Positions 17,373 to 23,469 of a DNA stretch of 38,517 bases are shown piece by piece (position 1 is the first letter of the stretch; the number at the start of each line of letters is the position of its first letter). The notes beneath the pieces were generated by a model. It was given only the letters and a program-made list of their open reading frames with translations, made no database searches and had not been told where the DNA came from. This DNA is from Clostridia bacterium. GTDB lineage: Bacteria > Bacillota > Clostridia > Christensenellales > Aristaeellaceae. The position numbers and the translations under genes were made by a program. The stretch is taken from contig JAFTPN010000062.1 in NCBI GenBank assembly GCA_017463245.1, forward strand, positions 1 through 38,517, given 5' to 3'.

Positions 17373-21388
<4,016 letters not shown>

Positions 21389-21398
<10 letters not shown>

Positions 21399-22468
21399 TC
21401 CTTATTCCCTCCCATCAGTGCAATGAAACGTTCAAACAGGAACCGGGTATCCAGCGGGCCGCCGTTCAGCTGGGGCATGAACTGCACCGAGAAGGCGGGC
21501 ATATCGCTGTAATCAAGACCCTCGCAGCTGCCGTCGTTGCAGTTGATGAAGCGCAGCGTGGCATTGTCGGGCAGGTTGTCGTTATCCACGGCATAGCCAT
21601 GGTTCTGGCTGGTGATGTAGTTCATGCCGGTGCGCAGATCCTTGATGGGCTGGTTGCCGCCGCGGTGGCCGTAGGGCAGCTTCACGGTGCCGCCGTTCTG
21701 GCTCAGCGCCAGCAGCTGGTGACCCAGGCCAATGCCCATCATGGGGATGCGCTTGTGGCACAATTCACGCAGCTCGTTCACCGCGTTCACGCACTCGGCA
21801 GGATCGCCAGCACCGTTGCTGATCACCACACCATCGGGATTCAGCTCGGCAATGGCCTCAGCGGTGCTGTCAGCAGGCACGCAGGTCACGGCGCAGCCGC
21901 GGGCTTCCAGCTCGCTCTGGATGCTGGCCTTGGCGCCGAAGTCCCACAGCGCCACAGTGTACTTGCCTTCCTTGGCAGCGGGGATCACTTCCTCGCAGCC
22001 CTTGGGATCAGCCTTCACCGCGTTGGCCTTCAGGCTGGCGATGGCGGCATCGATATCCTCGGGCTTCTCGCACAGGATGGCAGCCTTCATCACGCCATTG
22101 TCCCGCAGACGGCGGGAGATGGCACGGGTGTCCACGCCAGTCAGGCAGGTCACACCGTTGTCCTTCAGATAGTCGTCCAGCTTGCCCTGGCAGCGGAAGT
22201 TGCTGGGCGCGTCGCACAGCTCACGCACCACATAGCCCGCCAGCTTGGGCTGGGCAGGATTGTCCAGCGGGATCACGCCATAGTTGCCGATGGCCGGAAA
22301 GGTCTGCACCACGATTTGCCCTTCATAGGCGGGATCAGTCAGGGTATCCATGTAGCCCACCACCGAGGTGAGGAACACCAGTTCAGCGGCAGCTTCCTTC
22401 TGCGCGCCCCGGAGAACGCCCGTGTACAGGGTGCCGTCCTCCAGCAGGAGATAGCCTTTCTTTTCCAT
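21389..22468 (-). CDS. carA: CarA small subunit with a degenerate glutaminase site
   Basis: CarA normally hydrolyses glutamine and feeds ammonia to CarB. The 359-residue protein has the N-terminal CPSase small-chain domain (LEDGTLYTG, ELVFLTSVVGYMDTLTDPAYEGQ, GVDTRAISRRLRD) and a class I amidotransferase domain from about residue 170. The catalytic triad is absent. The nucleophile position in GIGLGHQ is Gly247 (codon GGC at 21730-21728), and the usual HPE motif reads Met331-Pro-Gln333 (21478-21470). SNGPGDP has become SNGAGDP. Flanking fold residues such as SQNHGYAVD remain. It probably keeps a structural role in an ammonia-dependent synthase. It lies between argF and carB in one operon. Confidence 0.93.
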
Positions 22469-22483: not shown

Positions 22484-23389
22484 TTACTTCATGCAGGCCA
22501 CCAGCACAGCCTTCTGGGCATGGAGCCGGTTTTCAGCCTCGTCGAAGATCTCGTTGGCATGAGCCTCAAACACATCGGCGGTGATCTCCTCGCCCCGGTG
22601 TGCAGGCAGGCAATGCTGCACCATGCAGCCAGCGTGAGCCACATCCAGCAGCTCCTGGTTCACCTGGTAGCCCGCAAAGGCCTTCTCGCGGATGGCCTTC
22701 TCGTCCTCCTGACCCATGGAGGCCCACACATCGGTAAAGATGGCGTCGGCGTCCTTGGCAGCCTCCATGGGCTTGTCGGTCATGAAGAACTTGCCGGGGT
22801 ACTGCGCTGCCAGCTCCAGCACCTTCTGGTCGGGCTGATAATCCTTGGGGCAGGCAATGGACACGTGCATGCCCACCTTCAAGCCGCCCACGATGAGGCT
22901 GTTGGCCATGTTGTTGCCATCGCCGATGTAGCACATGTTCAGGCCTTCCAGCTTGCCCTTGTGCTCGCGGATGGTCATCAGGTCGGCCAGCACCTGGCAG
23001 GGGTGGCAGAAGTCCGTCAGGCCGTTGATGATCGGGATGGAGCCGTACTCCGCCAGGGATTCCACTTCCTCCTGGGCGAAGGTGCGGATCATAATGCCAT
23101 CCAGGTAGCGGCTCAGCACCCGCGCGGTATCCTCCACAGGCTCGCCGCGGCCGATTTGCAGGTCGCGGGAGGAAAGGAACAGTGCATGACCGCCCAGCTG
23201 ATACATACCCGTTTCAAAGCTGACGCGGGTACGGGTGGAGGACTTTTCAAAAATCATGCCCAGGGTCTTTCCGGCAAGAATAGGATGCGGAATGCCCGCC
23301 TTGCGCTCGGCCTTGAGCTTGTCGGCCAGATCCAGCAGTTCCAGGATCTCCTCTTTGGACAGGTCCATCAGTTTCAGCAGGTGTTTCAT
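22484..23389 (-). CDS. argF: Ornithine carbamoyltransferase
   Basis: This enzyme joins carbamoyl phosphate to ornithine to give citrulline in arginine synthesis (or works in reverse in arginine breakdown). The 301-residue product has the carbamoyl-phosphate loop STRTR (51-55), DFCHPCQ, the FTDVWASMGQE ornithine-side segment and HCLPAHRGEE with the catalytic Cys. The start at 23389 lies 9 bases after AGGTG; ATG 23398 and GTG 23401 are too close to it. It is the first gene of the operon with carA and carB::dapF, so its substrate is made by its neighbours. The argI/argF naming is a convention only. Confidence 0.95.
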   Translation of the reverse strand: MKHLLKLMDLSKEEILELLDLADKLKAERKAGIPHPILAGKTLGMIFEKSSTRTRVSFETGMYQLGGHALFLSSRDLQIGRGEPVEDTARVLSRYLDGIMIRTFAQEEVESLAEYGSIPIINGLTDFCHPCQVLADLMTIREHKGKLEGLNMCYIGDGNNMANSLIVGGLKVGMHVSIACPKDYQPDQKVLELAAQYPGKFFMTDKPMEAAKDADAIFTDVWASMGQEDEKAIREKAFAGYQVNQELLDVAHAGCMVQHCLPAHRGEEITADVFEAHANEIFDEAENRLHAQKAVLVACMK

Positions 23390-23469
23390 GGAGTGCATCA
23401 CCTTTCATCACACAATAATCTGTAGCAACATATTTCAAGCGGGCGCAAATTCCCATGCACCCACTCTCT

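Follow-up and report, generated by a model that had tools for sequence, protein, structure and literature searches.

A probably ammonia-fed carbamoyl-phosphate synthase with a glutaminase-dead small subunit in a clade of uncultured gut Clostridia

In carbamoyl-phosphate synthase (CPS), the glutaminase serves only to supply ammonia. In a review (PMC6245113, accessible part), every bacterial carbamoyl-phosphate synthase is held to take its nitrogen from glutamine. Human CPS1 carries Ser294 at the position of the glutaminase catalytic Cys (PMC4655335, available part). Among the amidotransferases, NadE is a family with natural ammonia-only bacterial members (PMC3376133, accessible part). We searched the CC-licensed PMC literature, a scope that most subscription papers and preprints fall outside, and found no report of a glutaminase-dead bacterial CarA in the portions of text that it makes available.

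The stretch of DNA that we analysed, called the window below, comprises 38,517 nucleotides of contig JAFTPN010000062.1 of a Clostridia bacterium. It contains carA (21389..22468, minus strand), an uninterrupted reading frame of 359 aa that matches PF00988 with 144.7 bits and PF00117 with 128.9 bits. Homology thus extends over both the CPSase_sm_chain and the GATase domain, and the curated equivalog cut-offs are exceeded (NF009475, 392.8 against 221; TIGR01368, 370 against 307). An earlier note on this DNA had claimed that the complete catalytic triad of CarA is lost, and the codons bear this out. Aligned with E. coli K-12 CarA, our reference for residue numbering, the protein has Gly247 (GGC, 21728..21730) at Cys269, Met331 (ATG, 21476..21478) at His353 and Gln333 (CAG, 21470..21472) at Glu355, all on the minus strand. 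The alteration of SNGPGDP to SNGAGDP, also reported there, is equally present, with Ala220 (GCT, 21809..21811, minus strand) at E. coli Pro242. Furthermore, we see a fourth replacement that the note did not list, namely Ala47 (GCC, 22328..22330, minus strand) at E. coli Ser47, a residue that we take to bind glutamine. The residues Gly241, Gly243, Gln273, Asn311 and Gly313, presumably part of the glutamine pocket, remain in the alignment with E. coli. In summary, the protein is a CarA by homology, it lacks the Cys-His-Glu triad by which class I glutamine amidotransferases are defined, and it shares with CPS I, the ammonia-specific type that needs N-acetylglutamate, the loss of the catalytic Cys from the glutaminase domain.

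A sequencing or assembly error as the origin of these codons was considered and rejected. The same changes recur across independent assemblies, since a close relative from the rectum of a water deer (96% identical) has the same residues as the window CarA and the Cys is missing in 13 further genomes of the genus. The Cys269 codon is TGC or TGT in five intact sister genes. The structure that AlphaFold predicts for the window CarA from 12 sequences (mean pLDDT 66.9) is too weak for judging the pocket, and its top Foldseek matches, E. coli CarA and human CPS1, add nothing beyond the sequence.

Next, we asked how widely the replacements are shared within the genus of the window. The search covered 18 genomes, 17 of them with CarA. 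In 15 of these 17 the Cys has been replaced, always by Gly, and Ser47 is lost; we call these genes dead. The other two genomes (G015 and G017) keep Cys, His, Glu and Ser. His is gone from all 15 dead genes, as is Ser47, and Glu is gone from 14. The residues at the His and Glu sites are Met/Gln in four genomes, Gln/Ala in nine, Gln/Glu in one (G008) and Leu/Gln in one (G001). In a tree of 53 CarA sequences, from which the trait columns had been removed before building, all 15 dead genes group together in a single clade (support 100/99), and the nearest relative is the intact gene of G017. The earlier note had asked whether Gly, Met and Gln are fixed in the clade; this is true of Gly247, whereas the replacements of His and Glu vary among the subclades. 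The pattern suggests a stepwise loss, in which Cys was probably exchanged for Gly early and His and Glu decayed later, because Gly is common to all dead genes, the other sites vary and Glu survives in G008.

In the Gln/Ala subclades, insertions of 5 or 9 residues follow right after the former triad. In the alignment they adjoin E. coli CarA positions 359-360, which we take to line the tunnel; for a G359F mutant there is a structure (1m6v). The group with dead CarA consists of uncultured gut bacteria, many of them from ruminants. Named records exist for ten Cys-less relatives; seven of these come from the gut of sheep, goat, roe deer or water deer, and the titles of the remaining three name no host.

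In the window, carA stands in an operon with the gene order argF-carA-carB/dapF. Directly upstream lies argF (22484..23401, minus strand), an ornithine carbamoyltransferase gene (TIGR00658, 426 bits, cut-off 281). The adjoining carB (17373..21398, minus strand) is fused to dapF, and its open reading frame, profile matches and alignment indicate a protein of 1341 aa that joins the large subunit with diaminopimelate epimerase. Since carA and carB are separate frames, the single chain of CPS I is not found here. As the earlier note had held, the downstream CarB is intact as far as the residues examined go. We compared 16 positions that we take to be active-site positions; 15 of them are identical to E. 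coli, position 754 being Gln in the dead and the intact group, and wherever sequence is present the dead genus genes equal their five intact sisters at all 16. Beyond five columns that set the dead genus genes apart from seven intact relatives, we found no clear adaptation of CarB to ammonia. Among the five is E. coli position 174, presumably a tunnel residue, with Met in the dead and Leu in the intact genes. Note that annotating the neighbourhood by the longest open frame often picked antisense frames, and only genes identified by blast were used. The CarB-DapF fusion is present 3' of carA in those first-type operons that were fetched far enough, with dead as well as with intact CarA, and it is missing from the second-type CarB at two loci (L065 and L390). 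Our search of the CC-licensed PMC literature returned nothing on it.

If the small subunit is dead, a second CarA or another enzyme could supply the cell with carbamoyl phosphate. The CPSase_sm_chain domain occurs only once in the window genome (91% complete), so the second intact carA for which the earlier note proposed to search is not found there. A profile search likewise returned no second CarA in 14 of the 15 dead genus genomes, the second matches of G008 and G009 being weak and confined to the GATase half. The exception is G016, whose second CarA is located on contig C103, the sole place in that genome where a canonical GuaA and a PyrG were found. This contig may be foreign DNA, the genome having 7% contamination. 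On C103 (L065, L391), as on contig C1 of G595 (L390), a second-type CarA-CarB, PyrG and GuaA are found on one stretch with all glutaminase motifs intact; they are adjacent in G595, and in G016 a region of about 15 kb holds them all. This looks as though a glutamine-dependent nucleotide module had not been broken up.

Carbamate kinase as the real source of carbamoyl phosphate was also considered and rejected. The cut-off for arcC was reached in none of 25 genomes, 18 of which have matches that stay far below it, and in two of 14 control genomes. The window genome contains ArgF and at least one further match to the transcarbamylase family, not typed as PyrB. Given the single small-subunit domain, the arcC result and these transcarbamylase matches, CarAB is probably the only source of carbamoyl phosphate in this genome, at 91% completeness of the assembly.

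We then looked at other amidotransferases of the genus. The number of PF00117 matches is three each in six genomes with dead CarA (G000, G001, G004, G006, G010, G013) and five or six in four with intact CarA (G015, G017, G074, G087). In three further genomes with dead CarA the number is higher, with six matches in G009, five in G134 and seven in G124; no intact sister has more than G009. Of 12 dead genus genomes, 10 have a short GuaA that lacks the GATase domain, where that of G016 was judged by frame length only and that of G004 is cut by a contig end; the short form of G013 scores 441, above the GuaA cut-off of 400. The sole form in G000 and G010 is a divergent homologue of full length in which Gly takes the place of the Cys; that of G000 scores 303 against the same cut-off and is not matched by PF00117. 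A GuaA of the canonical type, with the Cys, was found in none of the 12, apart from contig C103 of G016, as against four of five sisters with intact CarA. Three intact-CarA sisters, G017, G087 and G109, have the short form too, and GuaA-like frames of about 490 aa, as in G000, are listed for intact genomes too; the difference between the two groups is therefore the loss of canonical GuaA and not a gain. In the GMP synthases of four loci (L344, L346, L360, L361) the glutaminase part has shrunk to a degenerate remnant; these proteins are apparent intermediates between the full-length and the domain-less form.

CTP synthase, searched by its N-terminal domain, was undetected in 10 of the 12 dead genus genomes, one of which is 96% complete. 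The other two are G001, where the active-site Cys of PyrG has become Gly, and G016 with its PyrG on contig C103. Each of the five intact sisters has a Cys-bearing PyrG, or a fragment of one. In G015, G074 and G087 an extra PyrG paralogue with the Cys-to-Gly change stands beside the canonical CTP synthase. Full-length CTP synthase homologues of this kind, with Gly for the catalytic Cys, were seen at L328, L330, L331 and L332, and in G001 such a homologue is alone.

In PurF, the glutamine-site motif is altered in all five dead genus genomes that were read (G000, G013, G001, G006, G009) and intact in all four intact-CarA sisters read, which have GHCRY(A/G)T.G with HNGN. The five altered proteins keep the N-terminal Cys. 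The Arg of the motif, presumably a glutamine ligand, has been replaced by Leu in G000, G013 and G001; G006 and G009 retain it. As a control we used HisH, where GICLGMQ and HPE are intact in five of five dead genus genomes read (G000, G004, G006, G010, G013). A second, thin control is GlmS, with the N-terminal Cys and HTRWATHG kept in G000 and G009; the PF13522 search returned no GlmS in G013, G001 and G006. The frame of PurL leaves the stretches fetched from G000, G013 and G001.

Loss of the Cys is not limited to the genus. A search of the family covered 308 genomes, 229 of them with a match, and gave 109 distinct CarA, 17 without Cys and 92 with all four residues. Extending the search to the order (396 genomes, 246 with a match) and including second copies, we obtained 224 distinct CarA, of which 195 have Cys, 21 Gly, seven Ser and one Asp at the site. 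Note that the sequences read are best-scoring matches and no random sample, and these counts give no frequency for the whole order. On a FastTree tree of CarA, the loss of Cys requires about nine changes, and well-supported branches leave no alternative for seven of these; the number is approximate, since some of the rows sit on long branches. Ser47 is lost in 28 of the 29 Cys-less sequences as against four of the 195 with Cys, an association among related, non-independent sequences from which no probability is derivable. Three further genes have Arg for His with the Cys kept.

The changes from Cys to Ser belong to seven of the nine genomes read of another genus (f5-g112), where His and Glu are kept; in the remaining two, G383 and G603, none of the four residues has changed. 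Six of the seven Cys-to-Ser genomes and the three His-to-Arg genomes have, in addition, an intact CarA of another type, and G553 has an intact copy as well, so that here the dead CarA stands beside a glutamine enzyme. In G124, both CarA copies are dead.

Are losses in CarA accompanied by losses in other enzymes elsewhere in the order? The association of CarA with the other enzymes is strong in the genus of the window and partial elsewhere. In G555, the dead CarA goes together with a short GuaA, a PurF without its first Cys and no PyrG found. G387 has Asp for the Cys of CarA, a changed PurF motif with the Arg kept and a canonical GuaA, and PyrG was not found. G124 combines its dead CarA copies and a changed PurF with canonical GuaA and PyrG, plus a short GuaA. 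In G134, we find a dead CarA, only a divergent GuaA with Gly for Cys, a canonical PyrG cut by the contig end and no recognised PurF. CarA of G611 has Ser for Cys, and this genome has a GuaA with a shrunken GATase remnant and an intact PurF, with PyrG not found. In G312 (51% complete), CarA is dead and GuaA has a degenerate remnant, and again PyrG was not found. Three genomes have an altered CarA and a second, intact one; among these, PurF is intact in G579 and G553, and PyrG in G416 and G553.

Judging from these comparisons, we consider it highly probable that the window CarAB is an ammonia-fed carbamoyl-phosphate synthase with a glutaminase-dead small subunit, and that it belongs to a broader change from glutamine to ammonia. 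The small subunit would be a pseudoenzyme, kept as a structural scaffold and possibly as a regulatory partner of CarB. CarB would still make carboxyphosphate, carbamate and carbamoyl phosphate, and its nitrogen would be free ammonia that diffuses in via the emptied glutaminase cavity or enters the CarB tunnel directly. The absence of glutaminase activity, the use of ammonia, the order of the losses and the route of ammonia entry are what we infer from these data, and an ammonia-rich gut is our presumed cause of the loss in CarA. As described in the available part of PMC4655335, E. coli CPS variants with a blocked or perforated tunnel are normally active on external ammonia, and an alternative ammonia entry was proposed for CPS1. 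A review on CTP synthase (PMC9138612, accessible part) reports evidence for entry of external ammonia through the GATase domain; by analogy, such entry may explain why GATase domains persist after their death. The use of ammonia by E. coli CPS takes concentrations that are very high and probably not physiological (PMC6245113, accessible part), so a better affinity or high local ammonia would be required here.

In the coordinated change that we propose, CarA, GuaA and PurF, and in G001 also PyrG, would have stopped hydrolysing glutamine while HisH continues to do so. We lean, with some reserve, towards the wider reading that de novo nucleotide synthesis has switched wholly to free ammonia, with carbamoyl phosphate, GMP and phosphoribosylamine (in G001 also CTP) coming from enzymes of which the glutaminase part is dead or deleted and with histidine synthesis still on glutamine, that the switch was repeated in one order, sometimes via a paralogous ammonia-type set beside a glutamine-type set, and that most of the clade members searched depend on cytidine or have an unrecognised CTP-forming enzyme, because no recognisable CTP synthase was found in them. 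The relaxed selection invoked in the earlier note is too narrow an explanation, since carA is still under purifying selection and the loss in CarA is recurrent and accompanied by losses of the glutamine sites of GuaA, PyrG and PurF.

That note was right in that the subunit is retained. The purifying selection on carA shows in dN/dS of 0.094-0.218 over nine pairs of the dead clade, with 0.132-0.303 over four pairs of intact genes. This matters for the simplest alternative, that carA is drifting towards a pseudogene, with CarB alone making what carbamoyl phosphate the cell requires and the small subunit left without a function. When scaled to CarB, the divergence of CarA is indeed larger among the dead genes (log distances in a mean ratio of 3.81, 78 pairs) than among intact relatives (2.29, 10 pairs), therefore some constraint has been lifted, and fewer columns of the GATase half are invariant among the dead than among the intact sequences (73 of 184 in 13 sequences and 123 of 184 in five, the samples being unequal). 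The faster divergence fits relaxed constraint as well as it would fit adaptation. The frame has stayed open and kept its place before carB in 15 of 15 dead genus genomes, however, where a dispensable subunit would be expected to vanish somewhere in the clade, and over the nine pairs dN/dS is 0.045-0.185 for the CPSase part of the gene and 0.096-0.232 for the GATase part. We therefore find simple decay very unlikely.

Purifying selection on the GATase half would also be expected if CarA had become a regulator, for example a sensor of glutamine or nitrogen that gates CarB without hydrolysis, and the retention of Gly241, Gly243, Gln273 and Asn311 points in the same direction. Such a sensor is hard to reconcile with the loss of Ser47 in nearly all Cys-less CarA and with the extra residues just after the former triad in some subclades, and no ligand is indicated; we rate it as improbable, if slightly less so than decay. 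Most improbable of all, in our opinion, is that glutamine is still the donor, either because the glutaminase of another protein serves CarB or because CarA uses a different nucleophile. The pocket residues kept in the window and the f5-g112 proteins with Ser for Cys beside unchanged His and Glu would agree with it. Against it, the only other PF00117 matches of the window genome are HisH and an untyped frame of 452 aa (51.8 bits), the losses of His, Ser47 and Glu in the dead genus genes went together with replacements that differ, and no new nucleophile was noticed in the CarA sequences read.

If the wider shift holds true, models of nitrogen flow for these gut bacteria would change, and one would predict a direct need for ammonia together with resistance to glutamine analogues that target nucleotide synthesis. 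With repeated origins and intact sister lineages, the path from a glutamine enzyme to an apparently ammonia-only one is traceable stepwise in young clades. A practical consequence concerns annotation: automated names can mislead, as the dead CarA passes the cut-off of a 'glutamine-hydrolyzing' model. A coordinated loss across several amidotransferases would be new as a phenomenon.

How does this locus compare with the systems already described? The analogy with CPS1 that the earlier note drew is sound in that the human enzyme has Ser for the catalytic Cys (PMC4655335, available part). Like vertebrate CPS1, the window CarA has kept a class I glutaminase domain without its catalytic Cys, ammonia is the donor in CPS1 and would be so here, and the very same Cys-to-Ser change is found in the seven bacterial genomes of f5-g112. 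Unlike in CPS1, CarA and CarB of the window are separate chains with CarB fused to DapF, the Cys has become Gly, and His, Glu and Ser47 are lost as well. The window type also arose separately, within a bacterial clade with intact sisters, and from its sequence we infer convergence with vertebrate CPS1. With E. coli CarAB (CPS II) it shares the two-subunit organisation, 38% identity in CarA (Foldseek alignment) and nearly all CarB active-site residues (15 of 16), whereas the glutaminase triad is lost. Ammonia-dependent NadE differs in having no glutaminase domain, a state argued to be ancestral (PMC3376133, accessible part), while in the window CarA the domain is kept, dead, and its loss of function is derived. 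The closest known systems are thus CPS1 in function and bacterial CPS II in architecture.
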